A DNA stretch of 64,000 nt from Pseudomonas grandcourensis (GTDB lineage: Bacteria > Pseudomonadota > Gammaproteobacteria > Pseudomonadales > Pseudomonadaceae), in NCBI RefSeq assembly GCF_039909015.1, contig NZ_CP150919.1, forward strand, positions 3,386,501 to 3,450,500. Reading direction: 5' to 3'. The first letter of the stretch is position 1, and every line of letters starts with the position of its first letter. The notes below the pieces were generated by a model that saw only the letters and a list, made by a program, of their open reading frames with translations, ran no database searches and was not told the origin of the DNA. Made by a program: the position numbers and the translations under genes. Shown one piece after another: positions 4,604-63,048 of this stretch.

Positions 4604-4777
4604 GTCAGGATCTGTTCGCAGGTAGTGACCCTGCCCGAGCGAGTTAGCCGAGGGTGGGAGATAGAGTTACGTTCCACAGGGTGTTTACCATCGAACTTGA
4701 ATGCTCAGTGTTCGCTGGTAAGCATGGAGCGTTTTACTCGGCTCTAACCCTAAAGTGTCGGCACCCGTAAGCCACGC

Positions 4778-4906
4778 ATGTTTAAGGTCTATAAAACCCC
4801 TCACACTGGCGAAGTCGTCGAAACCAAAGGTGGCAACCACAATCAACTGAAGGAATGGAAAGCAGAGCACGGTTCCGCGACCGTTGAGTCCTGGCTGACC
4901 AAGTGA
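4778..4906 (+). pseudogene. 3' fragment of an mvaT/mvaU-type H-NS-like gene
   Basis: These 42 codons encode the C-terminal DNA-binding domain of a Pseudomonas MvaT/MvaU protein: KVYKTPHTGEVVETKGGN, then LKEWKAEHGS and TVESWLTK, stop. The KGGN loop is the AT-rich minor-groove contact of this family. Intact proteins have about 115-125 residues; the oligomerisation half is absent and an in-frame TAA lies nine codons upstream of the ATG. A related intrinsic terminator follows immediately. The last 34 bases recur at 5845-5878. It may be expressed as a mini-protein, but no ribosome binding site is visible. Confidence 0.8.
4873..4906 (+). repeat. Direct repeat copy 1 (mvaT/mvaU 3' end)
   Basis: These 34 bases match 5845-5878 at 32 positions. 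They encode SATVESWL(T/S)K and the stop codon. Similarity continues more loosely through the following terminators. The spacing between copies is 972 bp. Confidence 0.85.
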
Positions 4907-4924
4907 GTTCGATTTGAGTACAAC

Positions 4925-4949
4925 AGGGCCTCCGAAGGCCCTTTTTATT
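4925..4949 (+). terminator. Intrinsic terminator after the mvaT/mvaU fragment
   Basis: The stem AGGGCC/GGCCCT (4925-4930 and 4937-4942) is closed by a TCCGAA loop and followed by a T run. Confidence 0.8.
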
Positions 4950-5844: not shown

Positions 5845-5878
5845 TTCTGCGACCGTTGAGTCCTGGCTGAGCAAGTGA
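5845..5878 (+). repeat. Direct repeat copy 2 (mvaT/mvaU 3' end)
   Basis: This is the second copy of the 34-base sequence at 4873-4906. It stands 15 bp after the SDR stop codon and encodes only the last eleven codons of the mvaT/mvaU frame. Confidence 0.85.
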
Positions 5879-5893
5879 TTTTGGTTGGAGTAC

Positions 5894-5918
5894 AAAAAGG
5901 CCCGAGAGGGCCTTTTTT
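5894..5918 (+). terminator. Intrinsic terminator after repeat copy 2
   Basis: The stem AGGCCC/GGGCCT (5898-5903 and 5908-5913) has a GAGA loop, with A-rich and T-rich flanks, so it can act on both strands. It serves the SDR gene and perhaps the convergent FMN reductase gene. Confidence 0.85.
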
Positions 5919-48357: not shown

Positions 48358-48419
48358 GTGCGATCTCCGTTGCTATGAGCCGGCAAGCCATTCCCGTCTG
48401 TAGATTCTCGGTGGCCCGT

Positions 48420-48701
48420 TTACAGATCCGAATAATCATCAAGCTTAAGGCTAGGAGCGCCTCCGTCCTCCGGTTCGCGCTCAGGCGTATGTATCACTCC
48501 AGCTTCGGCATCTACGCGCATCTGCTCAAGCTCTTTGTGAAAAGCTTTGTCCTGAACCGTGGGTTTGCTGGTGTACGGTTTTCGGTCAGGTACAGGCTGG
48601 GCTGCATAAGTCGTTACCGCGTCTGGGTCGTGCTGTAGTTTTTCTTGAACTTGCGATTCCAGCATTGCACGGAGCGCGTCTTTATCGGGACGGTTAAGCA
48701 A
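48420..48701 (-). CDS. Hypothetical protein, 93 residues, TTG start
   Basis: A TTG at 48701 follows AGGAG by seven bases and opens a 93-codon frame (LLNRPDKDALRAMLESQVQE). The protein is very hydrophilic, rich in Asp, Glu, Lys and Pro, and contains QDKAFHKELEQMRVDAEAGV, so it is probably helical and partly disordered. The frame can be extended to 48860, but that part is of poor composition. I do not recognise a family. Confidence 0.55.
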   Translation of the reverse strand: MLNRPDKDALRAMLESQVQEKLQHDPDAVTTYAAQPVPDRKPYTSKPTVQDKAFHKELEQMRVDAEAGVIHTPEREPEDGGAPSLKLDDYSDL

Positions 48702-50642: not shown

Positions 50643-51195
50643 CTGCATATGAGGCCGATCAGTCCCAGAAGGCCAGCTCGGTCTGCATCGAGCATGGCAC
50701 AGTGGTGTTCTCGGAAGCTAGAGGTCTTCGTTGGGCGGCGGGAATGTAGATACCTCGAGCGTCATTCACCGTACCTCCAAGACGAGGTGCTTCGTCAGCG
50801 GTTGCTCAACATGATTCACCGGCTTAATTAGGACTCCAATGAATTGCGAATGGCGCGGGACGATATCCAAGGTGGTGCCATAAAGCTCGCGTGATCGGTC
50901 TCGCAGGATTTCTGTGTTCGCTCCTTCGGGCCAACGCGGCCCGGCTAAAACCTTGTTTTCTGGCACAACAGAAAACCGGCACGCGGCAATCCCACGCGGG
51001 AGTTGGAGCATCTCAGCCGTGTCGCAGAGGTGTTCAATATTTAGTGGCCAGACCGAAACCGTCATCGATCCTATGCGGAGATCAAGGCATCTTAACCGGA
51101 GGTTTTTTGCTTGAGCTAAAGGGCGAATTGGTAGCCGGTCATCGGAAGGATTTGGGCTCTGGTAAGCTGGCTTCTTTTAGACCGTGATCACCAGC
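50643..51195. other. Stretch between nuclease-like and helicase genes without a supported gene
   Basis: A minus-strand frame of 99 codons (50766-51065) and short plus frames are open. One plus stretch reads KASSVCIEHGTVVFSEARGL, which looks like coding sequence but ends after a few codons. This is probably the remnant of a lost gene. No clear promoter is visible. Confidence 0.35.
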
Positions 51196-53967
51196 ATGAC
51201 AACGCAATGGAAGCCATCTTGGTTAGGACGACTACTCACACGCTCGCAGCCGTGGCAGCTGACCCTCGAGGGCGACCGATTAATACTTCGTATCGGCGAT
51301 CGGATTTATCCTCTCACGGCTGAAAATTTCGCCAGAGGCGGAATTAAACGTGGTCTGGTCTGGACGAATGTGACGGTGTTCGTCGGGCATAAGCTCAGGC
51401 TAGAGGGCCTTTCCAACTCTGAACAGCCAACCCTGAGCCAGGCGTTTATCCACCTGGAACAACTCAAGCATCAACGACTGTTCGAAGCGTACTACGCGAA
51501 AGTGACCCAGTGGCTTGAGGAGGTCGCTTGTGCGATAAAAACCGTAGATGCTGAGTGTCGTTGGCTCACTCACGACCTGCAGCAGGTGTTATTGGAATCT
51601 AGGGCATCGTTGGGTGTTAATGACGCAACGTTAGGTACGCTTTTCGCCCTTCCTGAGGTTCAGTCACTACTGGGAAGTAAAGCTTTCCGAGTGAAGTCCC
51701 ATCTAGACGACTGGGCATCAAATTGGTCAGAGCGGTGGGATGCGCGCAATAAGCTGCATTTGGAGCGCGAGCTCGAAGCATGCGCGACCTTGTTACAGAA
51801 GGTCGAAAGCAGACCGCTCACCGATGAACAATCTCGCGCCGTCCTTTGTTTCGACAATCGTGTTCAGGTCATTGCCTCGGCAGGATCCGGAAAGACCTCG
51901 ACCATGGTGGCCAAAGCTATCTACGCGGTTCACCGGAAGCTGGTCGCTCCCGCCGCTATCATCATGTTGGCGTTTAATAAACACGCAGCCACTGAGCTGA
52001 AAGCACGTGCTGCTGAGTCGCTTGTTCGCTTGGGAAAGGAAAACATCGTAATCAACGCGATGACCTTCCATTCTCTGGGGCTGAATATTATTGGAGGCGC
52101 AACCGGGAAGAAGCCTCACGTACCGGACTGGGCCTGTGAAACGCTTCCTGGACTCGAAAAGCTGGCGGAACTGATAGATGCCTTGAAGGATCAATCAGAA
52201 GCCTTCCGCACCAATTGGGATCTCTTTCGCCTTGTCTTCGGCCGCGATTATTCTTCAATGTCGATTGAAGATTTGTTTGAGGCCTTTGATAGCGAAGGGA
52301 ATGCGCGCCTTGTCAGCCTGAATGGCGATCGTGTGGCCAGCCAAGAAGAACGCCTGATCGCCAACTGGCTGTTCTACAACGGCGTGGAGTATGCCTACGA
52401 GAGGCCTTACGAACACGACACTGCTACTGCGGAGCGCAGACAATATTTCCCTGACTTTTACTACCCGAAGATCAATCTATATCACGAGCATTTTGCGTTC
52501 GATGCCAACGGTCAGGCACCGGCACATTTCGAAGGCTACCTAGAAGACGCCAACTGGAAGCGAGCGCTTCACAAATCTAAAGGCACCCAGCTGATGGAGA
52601 CCACGTCTCACCAGCTGAACTCAGGCCAGATATTCAATCATCTGAAGTTCGAGCTGACTTCACGTGGGATTACTCTCGACCCCAACCCTGATCGACCCCT
52701 ACCTGATTCAGGGTTGGCGCCGATGGAGCACGTGGAACTTATAAAAGTGCTGCGATCGTTCATCACTCACTTCAAGAGCAACAGTCTCAACGAAAAGACG
52801 TTGTATGAGCGCCTCAATACCCTCCCGGTGAATGCATTCAAGTACCGCTACCAGATGTTTTTAGAGCTCGCTATTCCAGTCATCAGGGCCTGGAATAAGG
52901 CACTGCACATGGAGCGGGGCATCGATTTTGAAGACATGATCAATCTGGCTGCGGAACACCTCGAGCGTGGACACAAATCCCCTTATCAGCTTGTTATGGC
53001 CGATGAATACCAAGATGCCTCGCGTGCTCGTGCTCGCCTATGTCGAGCATTGGTCGCAGCGCCGCATCGCTTCCTGTTCGCGGTAGGGGATGACTGGCAG
53101 TCAATCAATCGCTTCGCCGGCGCTGACGTCTCTGTCATGACAGGCTTTCGTGAGTGGTATGGGCATGGCCAGGTTCTGCATTTAGAAACAACGTTTCGAT
53201 GTCCGCAGGCAATTTGCGACGCCTCCAGTCGTTTTGTGTCCAAGAATCCTGCACAGCTGAGGAAGAATGTTGTTTCTGTAACACCCGCAGTTGGCCCGGC
53301 ACTTCAGGCATTCCAGGTGTCAAGTCAGGGTGACGTGCGTGACGCAATCAGCCAGTACCTTGAGACCTTGTATACCGGTCTCTGCGATGGCTCAGTCCCG
53401 CAAAATCGTAACGGGAAGATCACTGTCTTCGTTCTAGGTCGCTACAAGAACGACAGGCAATACGTCCCTGAAGGATGGAGTCATCGGTACGGCGATCGGT
53501 TGGAGCTGCGGTTCAAATCGATCCATACATCCAAAGGTGACCAAGCGGATTACGTGATCCTTCCGGGAATGGTGGCTAAAGGTTTCCCTAACCTCAAAGG
53601 TGATGACCCAGTGTTTGGCTTGGTCATGCCTGAAGGGGACACCTTTAAGCACGGCGAGGAGCGCCGTCTGTTTTATGTGGCACTGACTCGGGCTCGTCGA
53701 TCAGTCGCTATGTTCACCGTGTCCGGACGGTGCTCGCCATTTCTGGATGAATTGGTGAAAGATGGCGCAGTGACAATCACCGATATCAAGGGAGAAGCTG
53801 TCCAGGAGGATCGATGTCCGGTGTGCAAAGTTGGAGTCATCGTGGAGCGCAACGGAAAATATGGAGACTTCAAGTCCTGTTCAAATTTTCCACGATGCAA
53901 ATTCAAGCCAAGACAAAATGCGTCTCCTCAACCTAAGCGGAGTGCCTACCGGTCTCGTAAGTTTTGA
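51196..53967 (+). CDS. UvrD/Rep-family helicase, DNA helicase IV (HelD)-like, with C-terminal zinc finger
   Basis: This 923-residue superfamily 1 helicase resembles E. coli HelD: an N-terminal HelD-type domain, Walker A AGSGKT (Lys233), MADEYQD (Asp603-Glu604), HTSKGDQADYVI and VALTRARR near the C terminus. As in HelD, an insertion with QYFPDFYYPKINLYHEHF separates the motor parts. The tail has a topoisomerase-type zinc finger (CPVCKVG, CSNFPRCKF), which makes it about 240 residues longer than HelD. A GTG 12 bp upstream is an alternative start. It may act with the nuclease-like protein upstream. Confidence 0.85.
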   Translation: MTTQWKPSWLGRLLTRSQPWQLTLEGDRLILRIGDRIYPLTAENFARGGIKRGLVWTNVTVFVGHKLRLEGLSNSEQPTLSQAFIHLEQLKHQRLFEAYYAKVTQWLEEVACAIKTVDAECRWLTHDLQQVLLESRASLGVNDATLGTLFALPEVQSLLGSKAFRVKSHLDDWASNWSERWDARNKLHLERELEACATLLQKVESRPLTDEQSRAVLCFDNRVQVIASAGSGKTSTMVAKAIYAVHRKLVAPAAIIMLAFNKHAATELKARAAESLVRLGKENIVINAMTFHSLGLNIIGGATGKKPHVPDWACETLPGLEKLAELIDALKDQSEAFRTNWDLFRLVFGRDYSSMSIEDLFEAFDSEGNARLVSLNGDRVASQEERLIANWLFYNGVEYAYERPYEHDTATAERRQYFPDFYYPKINLYHEHFAFDANGQAPAHFEGYLEDANWKRALHKSKGTQLMETTSHQLNSGQIFNHLKFELTSRGITLDPNPDRPLPDSGLAPMEHVELIKVLRSFITHFKSNSLNEKTLYERLNTLPVNAFKYRYQMFLELAIPVIRAWNKALHMERGIDFEDMINLAAEHLERGHKSPYQLVMADEYQDASRARARLCRALVAAPHRFLFAVGDDWQSINRFAGADVSVMTGFREWYGHGQVLHLETTFRCPQAICDASSRFVSKNPAQLRKNVVSVTPAVGPALQAFQVSSQGDVRDAISQYLETLYTGLCDGSVPQNRNGKITVFVLGRYKNDRQYVPEGWSHRYGDRLELRFKSIHTSKGDQADYVILPGMVAKGFPNLKGDDPVFGLVMPEGDTFKHGEERRLFYVALTRARRSVAMFTVSGRCSPFLDELVKDGAVTITDIKGEAVQEDRCPVCKVGVIVERNGKYGDFKSCSNFPRCKFKPRQNASPQPKRSAYRSRKF

Positions 53968-54531: not shown

Positions 54532-54552
54532 GCTTGTAAGTCAGGTTGATAG

Positions 54553-55452
54553 ATGAAAGCAGTTCAGTGGACAGTATTTATTGATATGCTGGGGTTTTCT
54601 GAGATGAATTCCAAAGTTATATCGGATGTGCAGGCTCAAGATTTAATACAGTTCATGAGTTCTAATCTTTCTTTTATGGGGAACTACGAGAAGGAGGTAA
54701 AGACAAGATACGAGGGAGATCAAGGGTTCAATCTCTACGAATGGTATGATGTGAAGACAGCTTTTATCTCTGATTCTTTGGTCTTGACCTTTAAGCCGCG
54801 TCAGGTCGAAAGGAAGGAGCCTAGGGAGAAGGTTTTAATGCACTCGGCTAATGCCCTTATTCTCATCTGCTGGCGTTTAATGGAGTTAATGCAGAAATGT
54901 CTTGCAGAGAAGCGGATAATATTTAGGGGAGGAATTTCAACTGAGTTTTGTGACATAGACGGAAGCTTCGCGGTAGGGAAGGGATTGTCTTTGGCTCATC
55001 ACGCGGAATCGAAAAAGGCCGTGTACCCTCGGTTAGCATTGGCTGATGATGTACTAGAGAATCAAGCTCTTGTTGAAAAAATAAAATGGCTTTATAGAAA
55101 AATGTATGGCCGTAATGGATTTATTCAGCGTGATGGTAGTGTGTGGAGTGTGAATATTCTACAGCTAATGTTAGCAAGTGCTGACCCTTCTACCCCTAGC
55201 GCGAAGTGGCAGATGAGAGATTATCATATTAGGGCTACAATAATTGAAAGTAGAAGAAAGGTTGAGGCGATGCTTCAGCATCAAAAAGAATTAGTTAGAG
55301 ATTCTATTTCAGAAAATTTTTTACGATACAGGTCTAGTTACCAAAATCAATCCAAGCGGGAGCTTTATCGGAAAATACTTAAGAAGTATTTTTGGCTAAG
55401 ACGTCACCATAATAAAGAAATACTTGGCAGTTTCAGTAGGTTCAAGATTTAG
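54553..55452 (+). CDS. Nucleotide-cyclase-like protein of unknown product, possible immune signalling enzyme
   Basis: This 299-residue protein comes from markedly A+T-rich DNA. It shows the layout of class III nucleotidyl cyclase-like domains: WTVFIDMLGFS with Asp11, AFISDSLVLTF with Asp74, and FRGGIS (125-129) followed by FAVGKGLSLAHHAE. The two Asp residues sit where cyclases bind metal ions. The C-terminal third is Lys/Arg-rich and helical. Related domains occur in Pycsar-type antiphage enzymes, but no TIR or membrane effector is adjacent. The next gene, 181 bp on, encodes an unrecognised nuclease-like protein. Confidence 0.55.
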   Translation: MKAVQWTVFIDMLGFSEMNSKVISDVQAQDLIQFMSSNLSFMGNYEKEVKTRYEGDQGFNLYEWYDVKTAFISDSLVLTFKPRQVERKEPREKVLMHSANALILICWRLMELMQKCLAEKRIIFRGGISTEFCDIDGSFAVGKGLSLAHHAESKKAVYPRLALADDVLENQALVEKIKWLYRKMYGRNGFIQRDGSVWSVNILQLMLASADPSTPSAKWQMRDYHIRATIIESRRKVEAMLQHQKELVRDSISENFLRYRSSYQNQSKRELYRKILKKYFWLRRHHNKEILGSFSRFKI

Positions 55453-55633
55453 CTGATTCTAAGTCTGGTTGGTTTTTCGATGTCAGCAGACCAGCTATAT
55501 TAAGTTATATTCGAAGCCCCGTGTCTTTTGGTCTTTGCGAGAAATAATCCCTTTCGAAAGGGGGGGATGGTTCGCAGGAACTGAACTCTGGAACTACGCT
55601 GTGGGCCACAGTGTTGCAGAGGGGGTTTTGTAA

Positions 55634-58222
55634 ATGCCGAATGAGTCTGGCGCAGAACTGACGGGTCGATTGAGATCTAGGCCTTTACGGATAGCCTTTC
55701 TCGTCGAGCTAGGCGAGCATGCTGATCTGATGCTGGATGGAATATTCGCTGATTGCTATTCACGATGGGGCGGGCGGTTCAGTCTCATCGCTCCGTGCGC
55801 GGATGGCCAAATTGTTGCTGGTTACTGGCAGTGGTTGGAGACGTTTGATCCGGACATTGTCTACTCCTATATCGTTTTGAACGCTGAGGCTGTTCTTGAA
55901 GTTCACGAGCGCTTGGTTCCAGCTGACTACATCGTTCACCGGTTGGGCGACCAACCGAGATTAGATGTGCACGGCTTTCGGCCACAGTACCCGCCGGCGC
56001 TTTCCTCACTCTCAACCGTGTTTCGTCTTGCCCGGCATAGTCCATTGGCCGCCGGCCCAAAAGTCAAAATCATCGACACTTGGCATACGGAAAAGCCGAG
56101 CAGATTTTTGACAGACAATTTTGGTACCTATCACACGAGCGCGGCTACGGGGGTTTATCCAAATGACGCTCGTTCAACAGCTGGTCTACTGACGATTGTA
56201 TCGGATGATTATTTTCATAACCGTGAATACGGGGTACCACGGGATCTTGATCGAGTCATATCCGAGGACATGGCCTTTTTTGAGTTTGTGAGTCGGCGTG
56301 TCACGAGCATGAGTATGTTGTCGTCGTTGTATGCAGCGCGCCTTCAGATCCGTGACGGTCGATGGAGTGATGGATTCAATTTAGTGATTGGTGACTCATT
56401 TGAGGACAGGCTCATGTTCTGGAATGCGAGGTTGCTGACTCCCGCATGGCTCGATGGTGACTTATGCTGCTTCCGACTGACACTCGATCAGTTAAAAGAT
56501 GAGGACACACTGAGCCAGGTCGCCCATATGATCAACTCGCGGAATCATGTGAATGGTGGCGGCGGGGGGCAGTCGCAGCTTCGGGTACGTTCGGTGTCAC
56601 ATAGTATCGAAGAGCTTAATGAAGTCGTTAATTTGCTCCGGGCTGCAAAGGTTTGGAGTGCCCATGGGGCAGCTGAGGTCATCCCAGGCGGGCATGTTAT
56701 TCCAAGCAATGAATCTCTCGAACATGCTCGTGAGTTGGCTCAATTTACAGACGGATCTCGAGGCGGAGGCTGGTATGAATTTCGGTGGAGACCGCCGGTT
56801 GCTCACCCTCCTGAAAGAGAACCAGAGCATTTGAGAGATGCGCCGCCGGGACAATTGTTTACTCTTGGCCTGTGGTCGCTCGATTTCAGCTTTGAGTTTG
56901 AGCTTGATAAGCCAAGATTGGCCCAAGACAACATGTGGATGCTCCCGAAACGATGGCGCATGGCGGACGCTTTTGTTGCCAAATTCGCAAGTCGTGGTTC
57001 AGCCCAGAACCACATTTCTCTTATGCCGCGTACGAGTAGGCACGGTCTTTTGACTGTATTTGCGGGATTCAACCGAGTGCTCGAGTCTGTGAGTGTGCCC
57101 TCTATAGGTAACGCTATGCGGAAAGCGTTGTGCTGGGATTCAGCGATGAGGCGTGTTGGCCCTAAGGATCCGCCTTGGCCTGCACAGAAAATTGCGTGGA
57201 TGCGAAAGTCAAATGAGAGTCCCCATTTAGCTGGAGTCCTAGGGATGGCCGGAGGGCTGGCTGGCGCCAAAAGTCTTCTTCTGCATCCCTTTCTTCGGGA
57301 TGTATTCGCCAGCATAGGGGGAACTCCGAATCTCGCGGATGGGGACTTCCTGGCAACTGCAAACTCCCTCGCGAAGCGCGCTCGGGGACGGCCGGTGTTC
57401 GATCTCCAACTTGAAAGTGAGCGTACGGCTTTAGCAGGGTTGATAGTGAAAGCTGCGCAATCAGTCAAAGCCCCCAGAATGTATTTGTCACTCGATTATC
57501 TGCGCAGTCATTGGAAAGCTCATAGAGAACGCTATTGGGCGGAAAATCCGTTACAACACAAAGGGGATGAAGAGGAAGCAGCAGAATGGGATGCTCGAGA
57601 GCAACAGGCCTTAGAGGATCGACTTGGTGAAATGCGAACACGTCGCATGCTTTTTCAAGGATACCCTTGGGTTTGTGGTACCTGTCAGCATCGTAACTGG
57701 ACAGACTTCCAAGCTCTAACGCCGTCTCTTGAGTGTGATGTCTGTCGCACGGAAACGGATCTGCCTGTCGGGATACCATGGTACTTCAGGCCAAATGAAT
57801 TCCTCATCGAAAGCCTTCGCTCTCATAGCGTGTTGTCGCTTGTTTGGACTCTTTCAGCCCTCCGTGAACGAGCGCACTCGTCATTCATGTATTTGGGGCC
57901 AACCTGTTTTGGCTACGAGAACGACTCCAAGAATTCTGATGCGGAAGCAGATCTTCTGGCTATCGTCGATGGCCAAGCAGTTCTTTGTGAGGTGAAGTCG
58001 GCATGGCGCAGTCTTCGGGCCGTGCACATCGAAGATTTTATCCTTCAGGCAAAGCGTCTCAGGCCAAATCTAGCAATCCTCGCCGTTATGGAGATTGGCA
58101 GTCGATTCGAAAAGGAGCTGAAAGCGGCAAGTGAGTTACTGAAGTTGGAAGGCATAAAGTTTGAGCTACTGACACCAGATAAATATGATGTCCAAGACGA
58201 TCCGTATCTTGCTGGATACTGA
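55634..58222 (+). CDS. Unrecognised 862-residue protein with zinc ribbon and PD-(D/E)XK-like C terminus
   Basis: I do not recognise the family. The N-terminal 150 residues look like a Rossmann-type domain (LRIAFLVELGEHADLMLDGI, then DPDIVYSYI). The middle is globular without clear motifs. Near the C terminus, Cys681, Cys684, Cys701 and Cys704 (CGTC and CDVC) form a zinc ribbon, followed by a likely nuclease core: EADLLAIVDG (Asp773) and CEVKSAW (Glu786, Lys788). The ATG follows GAGGGGGTTTTGTAA. It lies in an accessory region beside a cyclase-like gene, so a defence role is suspected but unproven. Confidence 0.6.
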   Translation: MPNESGAELTGRLRSRPLRIAFLVELGEHADLMLDGIFADCYSRWGGRFSLIAPCADGQIVAGYWQWLETFDPDIVYSYIVLNAEAVLEVHERLVPADYIVHRLGDQPRLDVHGFRPQYPPALSSLSTVFRLARHSPLAAGPKVKIIDTWHTEKPSRFLTDNFGTYHTSAATGVYPNDARSTAGLLTIVSDDYFHNREYGVPRDLDRVISEDMAFFEFVSRRVTSMSMLSSLYAARLQIRDGRWSDGFNLVIGDSFEDRLMFWNARLLTPAWLDGDLCCFRLTLDQLKDEDTLSQVAHMINSRNHVNGGGGGQSQLRVRSVSHSIEELNEVVNLLRAAKVWSAHGAAEVIPGGHVIPSNESLEHARELAQFTDGSRGGGWYEFRWRPPVAHPPEREPEHLRDAPPGQLFTLGLWSLDFSFEFELDKPRLAQDNMWMLPKRWRMADAFVAKFASRGSAQNHISLMPRTSRHGLLTVFAGFNRVLESVSVPSIGNAMRKALCWDSAMRRVGPKDPPWPAQKIAWMRKSNESPHLAGVLGMAGGLAGAKSLLLHPFLRDVFASIGGTPNLADGDFLATANSLAKRARGRPVFDLQLESERTALAGLIVKAAQSVKAPRMYLSLDYLRSHWKAHRERYWAENPLQHKGDEEEAAEWDAREQQALEDRLGEMRTRRMLFQGYPWVCGTCQHRNWTDFQALTPSLECDVCRTETDLPVGIPWYFRPNEFLIESLRSHSVLSLVWTLSALRERAHSSFMYLGPTCFGYENDSKNSDAEADLLAIVDGQAVLCEVKSAWRSLRAVHIEDFILQAKRLRPNLAILAVMEIGSRFEKELKAASELLKLEGIKFELLTPDKYDVQDDPYLAGY

Positions 58223-58452
58223 CCGTGAGGCAGCTACGTCACCTGGGAATTTCATTTCTGACTGCAAGTTAAAGAGGCAATGTCGTAACTTCGCGCAGTG
58301 AAGGTGGACTGAACAGACCTGCGGCCGCGATACGCTGCTTAGCTATCATTTCCGTGGTGTCGTAAAGGTAATTTCAATGCTTACTCAGCGCGCGAGTTCC
58401 TGTATCGACTGAAACTTTTCACCGTTCCGCCTGGCGCCTATGGATATGAGCA

Positions 58453-58893
58453 ATGAAAATTGAATACCAGCCTGCTCCGTCCCTCTCGGATAGTATTTGG
58501 GAGACCGTGGGTTTGCCTGCGCGCGGAACAAGGTTGTATGGCCTTGTACACAAGGGCCTTCAATTCGAGTTACTAGATCAGGTGGCGAGCCTGCTCCAGG
58601 TGCAACGGACGGATATCTCCAAGGCGATCTGCATATCGCCCACAACGTTGGCACGAAGGATGAAATCTGGTCGCTTGAACACTGCTGAAAGCGATCGCCT
58701 GGTCGCATTAATAGCTCTGTAGGAAGAGGCCATTTCCCTATTCGAGAGGGATACGGTCGCTGCCGTAAAATGGATGAGCTCGCCAGTGCAAGGTCTGGGG
58801 CTGAAGCGGCCAATAGACATGTTAGGGACGAGGGCGGAAGTGAACGCTGTTTTGGATCTGATTGGTAGGCTCGAAAGGAGAGTACTGGTCTGA
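58453..58893 (+). pseudogene. ParS/MbcA-type antitoxin gene broken by a stop codon
   Basis: The frame begins MKIEYQPAPSLSDSIWETVG and carries the Xre-like helix-turn-helix part (DISKAICISPTTLARRMKSG). A TAG at 58720-58722 interrupts it. In the same frame, coding continues as EEAISLFERD, KWMSSPVQGLGLKRPIDML and NAVLDLIGRLERRVLV, the C-terminal toxin-binding domain, and ends at 58893. Only the one codon spoils a protein of about 146 residues. No RES-type toxin gene follows. A diverged copy lies at 60655-61067. Confidence 0.8.
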
Positions 58894-59038
58894 GGCGATC
58901 CGATATCGTATTCCGGATTTAGGTAATCCCAAAAAATGCGCTTGACGTAAGCTATAGAAATAAAGCAATTCTCAATTGCATAGAAGGCGAATCCAGATCG
59001 TAGCGTTTGAGGACGACAGCACGGATCGTAATGCATGC

Positions 59039-59067
59039 AAAAAAGTCCCTTAATTGGGACTTTTTTT
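59039..59067. terminator. Bidirectional terminator
   Basis: AAAAAAGTCCC (59039-59049) and GGGACTTTTTTT (59056-59067) flank a TTAATT loop, between the convergent antitoxin pseudogene and the 68-residue ORF. The equivalent place in the second copy (about 61240-61265) has lost the stem. Confidence 0.85.
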
Positions 59068-59206
59068 GCCTTAAATTCGAGAATGAATTTGGCGCGGCCC
59101 TTGCGCAACGCACCTTAAGGTTGCTGAGCACGATGCCATTGCTGTCTTGCCATCGCTCCTTCGAGCCATAGGCTCGGCTGCTTGGACACTGAATGAACCG
59201 TAATGG

Positions 59207-59413
59207 TCATCGCACGAATCGCTTGAGTGACTGTCGATTCGCTATCACTTTCTCTCGAATCTCGTTGGGATCAATCGACATGCCGCCGTCTGGCGTAACG
59301 CGAAGAGATTTCAGATTGTTGAGAGAGACTATGAACGCGCGATCTCCCGCTTGCTCTGAGCTTGGTCTTTTGTCCTTGAAGAAAAGAGCCATGCATCGCT
59401 CGAACATTTTCAT
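59207..59413 (-). CDS. Small hypothetical protein, 68 residues (copy 1)
   Basis: The protein begins MKMFERCMALFFKDKRPSSE and ends VIANRQSLKRFVR. It differs at only a handful of positions from the copy at 61395-61601, mostly by conservative changes (for example D/E, F/L and R/G), which supports a real coding sequence. GGAG lies nine bases before the ATG. It is basic and probably helical. No family is recognised. Confidence 0.65.
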   Translation of the reverse strand: MKMFERCMALFFKDKRPSSEQAGDRAFIVSLNNLKSLRVTPDGGMSIDPNEIREKVIANRQSLKRFVR

Positions 59414-59656
59414 ACCGCGCTCCGTTGTCCATGAACCATGGAACGCATCTTCAGCGATGGGCCGTAAAATGTCCTGGCTTTTTTCGGCCAGTCACTCGTG
59501 TGGCCTCAGCAGTCGAGCCCTTGTGCGCCTCGTGAGTGAGTCATTGGCGGTGGATGAAGAGCTCGCCATCGTCGACCAGGGCGGAGCACATGTGACGTCT
59601 TACTCACTCTCTTGCCGTGTGATACATGCGGCTCCAGCAGCCATGCTATTGATGGT

Positions 59657-60428: not shown

Positions 60429-60654
60429 AGAGCTCTGCCAACCGTCTCAACCAACCTACCTTCAATCTCACTACGTCATGCTCCACCTATCCGAGGGCGA
60501 TTACCTTTTCCCATCCCCCAAGAGATCCGCAGCGCCCAATGTCGAGGCCCGCGTTGGCCGTGCTGTTATCCTCCTGGTCTCACGAAGAGAGCATCGAAGC
60601 GGGGCTTGTCACTCCGCATGGAGTTCGCACCACGAATAGATATGGATTTGAGAA

Positions 60655-61067
60655 GTGAATTTCGAATACCAACCTGGCCCATCAGTCTCTGGGAGTATTT
60701 GGGAAGCCCTAGGATTGCCTTCACGCGGAACAAGACTCCATGACCTCATTCACGAGGGTCTATCTTTTGAGCTACTTGATCAGGTATCGAGCCTACTGCA
60801 GATGCGGCGAGCGGATATCTCCAAGGCGATCTGCATGTCTCTCACAATGTTGGCGCGTAGGGCGAAAACAGGTCACTTGAACACAGCTAAAAGCGATCGT
60901 CTGGTCGCATTGATAGCTGTGTTTGAGCAAGCCCGTTTCCTATTTGAGAGCGTGCCGCCGCTGCGAAGAAATGGATGAATTCTTCAGTTCGTGGTCTTGG
61001 CTTGAGGCGTCCGCTCGACATGTTGGGGACTAGGGTGGAAACGAACGCGGTGTTCGATCTCATGTGA
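60655..61067 (+). pseudogene. ParS/MbcA-type antitoxin gene, frameshifted (tandem copy)
   Basis: It begins MNFEYQPGPSVSGSIWEALG and aligns throughout with the copy at 58453. Near 60945-60960 one base is missing relative to that copy. The current frame then ends early (VPPLRRNG, stop at 60978), while the original frame continues as KKWMNSSVRGLGLRRPLDML and ends at 61067. The two copies therefore carry different inactivating mutations. Confidence 0.78.
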
Positions 61068-61394
61068 CTATTAGAGATGAGAGTGCTTGTGTGAGAGTGT
61101 CCGTGCTCGTTTTTTGCGGCTAATCCTGAAATATGCGCTTAACGTAAATCATGTATGGATATACAGTTTTCTCAATGGCATAGACGGTGCCAATCCTGGT
61201 CGTAGCCTCTGGGGGACGCCAGCACGGATCGTGATGCAAATCGAAAAATGGGGCTTTTTTTTGCCTGAAAATCGAGTATGAATTTGGTGGCCCCTGCGCA
61301 ATGCACCATAAGGTCGCTGAGCACGATGTAAGCTGTCCCGCCATCGCTCCTTCGAGCCAACGGCTCGGCCCAGCACACCAAATGAATCAAACGG

Positions 61395-61601
61395 TCATCG
61401 CACGAATCGTTTGAGTGACTGCCGATTCGCTATTACTTTTTCTCGAATCTCGTCGGGATCAATCGACATGCCACCCTCAGGTGTCACGCGCAGAGATTTC
61501 AGATTGTTGAGAGCAGCTATGAACGCGCGATCTCTCGCTTGCTCTGAGCTTGGTCTTTTGTCTTTCAAGAAAAGAGCCATGCATCGTTCGAACATTTTCA
61601 T
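61395..61601 (-). CDS. Small hypothetical protein, 68 residues (copy 2)
   Basis: This copy begins MKMFERCMALFLKDKRPSSE and has the same length, start context (GGAGCGCGGT before ATG) and C terminus (LKRFVR) as the copy at 59207. While the linked antitoxin genes decayed, both copies of this ORF stayed open, which suggests selection. Function unknown. Confidence 0.65.
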   Translation of the reverse strand: MKMFERCMALFLKDKRPSSEQARDRAFIAALNNLKSLRVTPEGGMSIDPDEIREKVIANRQSLKRFVR

Positions 61602-61814
61602 ACCGCGCTCCGTTGCACATGAACCATGGAACGAATCTTCATCGAAGGGGTGGAAAATGTCCTGGCTTTTTTCGACCAGTCTCTAGTGTGACCTTGGCAG
61701 TTGAGCACGTGCGCTCCTCGTGTATGAGTAACGGAGGTGCCAGCGCTGATAAGCTGAATACCACACACGCAGGGTGAACTATGTCGGCTGCATTACTACA
61801 CGAGAGCTCCTCAA

Positions 61815-62802: not shown

Positions 62803-63048
62803 AGCGCGTCGGAAAGCAAGCGGAGCGCGCAGGCCGACGGCCGTAGGCGTGCGGATGGACGCCCGGAGGGCCAAGACCAGCGCCTTGCGCAAGGGCTTGG
62901 TTCACGACAGCCCACCCCTGAAAGGGGGACGCACAAACCACAACGATTAAAGCCCTTTTGATAAGCCACCAAAAATATTTCACTCTTTCGCTAAAGGTTT
63001 TCTTCAAAGCATCCGTTGTTATCTTTAACAGCAACGAAATGGTGATTT

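Follow-up and report, generated by a model that had tools for sequence, protein, structure and literature searches.

Two adjoining genes in a Pseudomonas chromosome, one for a 299-residue cyclase-like protein and one for an 862-residue protein with nuclease features, raise the question of whether they act together as one immune system or lie side by side independently. They sit in a stretch of 64,000 nucleotides of Pseudomonas grandcourensis (contig NZ_CP150919.1, positions 3,386,501 to 3,450,500; hereafter the window), for which an earlier note had proposed an undescribed antiphage system of a cyclase with a signal-activated nuclease. The ORF list contains both reading frames on the forward strand with 181 bp between them, as that note had described (Table 1). 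Since each gene belongs to a conserved family, the observed pair of genes, as genes, is not a product of chance, and the common strand and 181-bp gap make co-transcription possible at this locus. A terminator-like scan of the gap region gave no more matches than shuffled sequences. The GC content is 40.1% in the cyclase-like gene, 51.9% in the gene of the 862-residue protein and 52.6% in the uvrD-like gene upstream.

Table 1. Features of the two genes, in window coordinates
Feature	Position	Strand	Remarks
Cyclase-like gene, 299 aa	54553..55452	+	Class III nucleotidyl cyclase fold and helical C-terminal part
Asp11, first metal-binding Asp position (FIDMLGF)	54583..54585	+	Invariant 37/37 in A1, 20/20 in A3; hhalign to class III motif
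Asp74, second metal-binding Asp position (ISDSLV)	54772..54774	+	Invariant 37/37 in A1, 20/20 in A3; hhalign
RGGIS, residues 125-129, counterpart of class III RxGI motif	54925..54939	+	R125 and G126 invariant in A1 and A3; hhalign
GKGLSLAHHAE, residues 142-152, counterpart of class III GxxVNxAxRLE	54976..55008	+	hhalign; Asn replaced by S146, Arg by H150, both columns variable
Conserved C-terminal helix motif KYFWLRRHHN, residues 278-287	55384..55413	+	K278, H286 and N287 invariant 37/37 in A1
Intergenic gap, 181 bp	55453..55633	.	14-bp palindrome at 55549-55562
862-aa gene	55634..58222	+	ORF; Rossmann-like N-terminal part, C4 ribbon, PD-(D/E)XK nuclease; AlphaFold2 pLDDT 85.4
N-terminal Rossmann-like part, residues 9-341	55658..56656	+	R44-R48 (RWGGR), G253, D258, R259, W263, N264 and R266 invariant
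Four-Cys ribbon C681, C684, C701, C704	57674..57745	+	Invariant 50/50; weakly RanBP2-like
PD-(D/E)XK nuclease domain, residues 731-855	57824..58198	+	AlphaFold2 model, structure comparison
Catalytic-type motif E771-x-D773 ... E786-x-K788	57944..57997	+	Invariant 50/50 in A2

The class III layout that had been read in the 299-residue protein (Asp11, Asp74, RGGIS) was borne out by its relatives. In an alignment of the window protein with 36 of its 55 other matches (A1, 37 rows), D11, D74, R125, G126, G127 and S129 are invariant, with residue 128 being I in 35 sequences and V in 2. In a second alignment of 20 sequences (A3, 7 near and 13 distant), the invariant residues are D11, S73, D74, R125, G126 and E152, with G (17 sequences) or A (3) at position 127. 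When compared by hhalign with a class III profile, A3 reached a probability of 94.9 (E 4.6e-8) and A1, forced end to end, 58.3 (E 1.4e-5); the target consisted of 18 PF00211 loci, picked out of 30 in related genomes for the motif around the first Asp, which is hence presupposed in this comparison. D11 and D74 align with the two metal-binding Asp of class III cyclases; the segment VNLASRLE of the latter aligns to L145-E152, with S146 at the Asn position and H150 at the Arg position. Structure comparison also supported the cyclase fold that the earlier note had anticipated, with a low whole-chain TM-score (0.36 by query). The protein matched no Pfam or PADLOC family at E<=10, its single NCBIfam match (E 0.092) is meaningless, and in PHROGs residues 112-196 matched phrog_23933, a family of unknown function (E 1.8e-9). 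This is an unnamed class III-like family in which both metal Asp are kept, the Asn/Arg pair is not, and a C-terminal K...HN helix is invariant.

According to PMC4886424, class III cyclases are marked by three features, the residues for metal, substrate and transition state, and several established members are without the Asn; loss of Asn and Arg together would be more severe than loss of Asn alone. It is possible, albeit doubtful, that the window protein is a class III fold put to another use, such as NTP binding, and makes no second messenger. The columns of the catalytic residues vary in A1 (S/I/G/T/V at 146; E/K/H/L/I/Y/D at 150) and A3 is without both residues except for two N at column 150, whereas the invariance of both metal Asp throughout A1 and A3 argues against a repurposed fold. 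So do Rv1900c, in which His replaces Asn and which is cited as a cyclase in PMC4886424, and the PycC-like protein L079, read by eye, which keeps the Asn and has Lys at the Arg position. In our preferred reading, the protein probably uses D11/D74 to bind two metals along with an NTP and yields a nucleotide product, by a chemistry that would probably be non-canonical because the usual Asn and Arg are absent.

For the 862-residue neighbour, the C-terminal PD-(D/E)XK core proposed by the earlier note is supported by the AlphaFold2 model and its structural matches. In an alignment of the window protein with 49 of the 120 matches listed of 295 (A2, 50 rows), all four Cys of the proposed ribbon and D773, E786 and K788 are invariant, as is E771, which had not been pointed out before. 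Profile matches of the ribbon in the PDB were TRABID (E 0.52) and ZRANB1 (E 1.6). The Rossmann-like N-terminal part fared less well: the model has the alternation of strands and helices but the structural matches are weak, so that this is the least certain item of the description. As to a CARF domain for binding cyclic oligoadenylate, some structural alignments of the protein to Cdn1/Card1 begin near residue 95. The protein had no matches in Pfam or PADLOC at E<=10, and none in NCBIfam or PHROGs. Its family comprises at least 295 protein clusters (725-916 aa among the 120 matches listed) and turned up in 2 of 398 genomes of the genus (G000, the source genome, and G336), in 2 of 398 from the phylum and in 3 of 343 from the taxonomic family, with the source genome counted each time.

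Relatives of the nuclease were followed in six loci, namely G336 (L015), G630, two plasmids, one viral contig and G1033 (L096), the flanking ORFs of L015 and L020 being scanned in part. In the surroundings, L015 has genes for a protein kinase and an FRG protein; L016, an integrase gene and a large one that matches AAA weakly; L019, genes for a helicase and a RecB-like protein; L020, a gene of helix-turn-helix type; and L096, HNH, Mrr and integrase genes. The relative on a Burkholderia glumae plasmid is directly preceded by a run of three genes annotated as tyrosine recombinases and by a 174-aa gene (L018:4395-9746). An unlikely reading is that the protein works for a mobile element, in its integration, maintenance or exclusion, and not in host defence. 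Tyrosine recombinase genes do occur in the flanks of L016, L018 and L096, co-directional with the nuclease gene in the first two, and an integrase lies ~5.9 kb downstream of the window gene. However, the recombinase distances are unequal (~0.7, 3.9 and 6.1 kb), the L096 integrase is on the opposite strand, the nearest annotated recombinase of L019 is ~7.5 kb off, and recombinases carry defence genes around as well. We favour a stand-alone nuclease, probably directed against phages or mobile elements, in which the Rossmann-like part would be the sensor, the C4 ribbon a putative nucleic-acid contact, and the Can2-like PD-(D/E)XK core would cut with E771/D773/E786/K788.

The cyclase-like family is a broad one without a Pfam or PADLOC model. 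It consists of 56 protein clusters (that of the window and 55 others), the closest relative being P0002 of P. fulva (76%), and the profile search found it in 16 of 398 genus genomes: strongly in the source genome, G133 and G422, and as distant relatives in the remaining 13 (E 9.3e-4 to 6.1e-11). Eleven loci were compared, nine from genome contigs (including L011, a broken copy), L021 from an IMG/VR viral contig, and L047 from G133. L004 and L005 have common surroundings, L048 is, by its length, the L004 contig and was left uncounted, and the P0002 locus lies outside the sample. The relatives adjoin a PDC-S32 candidate gene (L007), a GTPase gene and a PDC-S35 candidate with TIR (L009), a gene that is weakly HEPN-like (L008) or an integrase (L003); the ORF upstream in L010 is masked sequence. 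A QatB match downstream in L006, under the curated cut-off (50.4 vs 100 bits), and an Imm26 match among the L008 neighbours could be read as defence-like. A constant neighbour of the cyclase-like gene was rejected, since the adjoining genes differ among L003, L004/L005, L006, L007, L008, L009, L021 and L047. It is highly improbable, in our view, that the family is a portable signal generator that uses any nearby effector (AbiJ-type in L007, TIR in L009, weakly HEPN-like in L008, the Can2-like nuclease in the window); what it makes would then be a new nucleotide signal, given that the metal Asp pair is kept and the transition-state Asn/Arg are lost.

Two observations concern distant relatives of the cyclase-like protein. 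In L031:1258-3005 and L036:1558-3362, read by eye, the start of the relative overlaps the end of a ParA-like ATPase gene, and the two may form a conserved two-gene unit. In L024 and L033, the adjoining gene resembles, by eye, what we take to be a P2-type tail gene D, which suggests that these relatives may be prophage cargo.

The earlier note had set conserved adjacency of the two families as the test of its proposal, and in the loci compared the homologues are not neighbours. A six-frame profile search of the flanks found the nuclease family in none of the 11 cyclase loci, and no cyclase relative appeared in the flanks of the six nuclease loci, even with the broader A3 profile. The flanks extended up to 10 kb, less at contig ends in L009, L010, L011 and L020; the scans pick up only relatives with short exact patterns in common, and the samples, of 11 and 6 loci, are small. 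As none of the 10 intact cyclase loci is paired, a true pairing rate above ~26% is unlikely (95% bound, loci treated as independent). Among the genus genomes searched, both families occur together only in the source genome; their sizes, 56 vs at least 295 clusters, are about fivefold or more apart; and none of the 120 nuclease matches listed is long enough for a fused cyclase. DNA homology on the cyclase side starts at the earliest at window position 54549 (L003), and at 54553 in four other loci, whereas that on the nuclease side starts at 55589 (L015), or at 55680, within the gene, in L096. The homology blocks are thus separate, each stopping just outside its own gene. The GC content of the cyclase gene is below that of its flanks in all 11 loci (window, L003-L010, L021 and L047; differences of 0.014 to 0.173), widely so in the window (0.401 vs 0.525) and little in L006 (0.523 vs 0.537). 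The window nuclease gene equals its flanks (0.519 vs 0.514); in four of six loci, among them that of the window, gene and flanks differ by no more than 0.005, while the gene has the lower value in L019 and L020 (L096 is outside this count).

Because there is no common neighbourhood in the 11 and 6 loci, the homology blocks are separate, and GC and family sizes are unlike, the two are probably independent cargo genes, neighbours by chance in a variable, defence-rich region of the Pseudomonas chromosome. The caveat of the earlier note that they might have arrived separately was right: they would have been acquired independently and come to lie side by side, and the output of the cyclase-like protein would be independent of the nuclease gene. 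A very unlikely reading is the two-gene immune system in which the cyclase senses infection and its nucleotide signal binds the Rossmann-like part and switches the nuclease on: common strand and 181-bp gap, two compatible folds, a nuclease domain like those of Can2 (activated by cA4, according to PMC7969007), Card1 and Cdn1, and a nearby Gabija are outweighed by the unpaired loci, the differing composition, the separate homology blocks, the unequal families and the want of a fused-cyclase length among the 120 matches listed. A defence role of each gene by itself is plausible, and the two proteins may be partners in trans.

Beyond the window, the nuclease gene is followed by the integrase, a KfrA-type gene and then, ~8.3 kb downstream, a Gabija GajA/GajB pair (L017:13052-16707, ~66551-70206 in window numbering; E 2.5e-285 and 0). 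Among the uncharacterised predicted defence clusters of PMC13092281, PD-(D/E)XK is the most frequent recognised domain (9%), so that a gene of this type is nothing unusual in a region of this kind. The protein encoded at window 51184-53967 resembles UvrD/helicase IV, ends in a zinc ribbon of the topoisomerase type and in PADLOC comes closest to GajB helicases (E 6e-40). Positions 58439-59541 and 60641-61729 form a 1.1-kb direct repeat of 77.7% identity; ORFs at 58453 and 60655, in its two copies, match Xre-like antitoxin helix-turn-helix, and an antitoxin-type gene thus seems duplicated. Window 48400-48696 and 62809-62859 show 84.5% and 82.7% identity to L015 15959-16261 and 16427-16477 (G336, a carrier of the nuclease family), perhaps as shared repeats or element borders. 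Window 4759-4946 and 5846-5918 are 83-86% identical to one place in L096 (G1033), possibly a dispersed repeat.

This outcome removes the false lead of an operon for cyclase and nuclease, and two questions can now be taken separately. One is what is made by the class III-like family, which has no name and whose relatives occur in genomic islands and on a viral contig; the other is whether the likewise unnamed family of the 862-aa nuclease, its active-site residues like those of Can2 and its genes accompanied by integrase and restriction-type genes at several loci, is a single-gene defence. A literature search by topic words turned up no paper on either family.

Among known systems, the class III adenylyl/guanylyl cyclases (CyaC, P. 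aeruginosa CyaB, mammalian adenylyl cyclases) share the fold and the two metal Asp with the window protein, but have the catalytic Asn and Arg; the window family is without these as conserved residues and has an extra helical C-terminus (K278/H286/N287 invariant). The class III fold is also common to the PycC of Pycsar (Foldseek matches 8jsz, E 4.3e-3, and 8jsf, E 4.8e-3). Membership in Pycsar was rejected, as no PADLOC family matched the window protein at E<=10 or any of the 20 A3 members at E<=0.01. The TIR or membrane effectors of Pycsar, said earlier to be absent beside the cyclase gene, are indeed so: the 862-residue protein has no recognisable cyclic-nucleotide-binding, TIR or transmembrane match in Pfam and PADLOC at E<=10. 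Across the whole source genome, the PycTIR model reached E 2.2e-12 at best, vs 5.7e-121 in the best genome of the search. The DUF2652 proteins, uncharacterised bacterial class III-like proteins without the Asn according to PMC4886424, have this missing residue in common with the window family, which is without the Arg as well; none of the 20 A3 members matched DUF2652 or any Pfam cyclase model at E<=0.1. On the nuclease side, the PD-(D/E)XK domain resembles that of Can2, Card1, Cdn1 and VC1899; those proteins have ~360-440 aa, whereas the window protein, at 862 aa, has the C4 ribbon and extra central parts.
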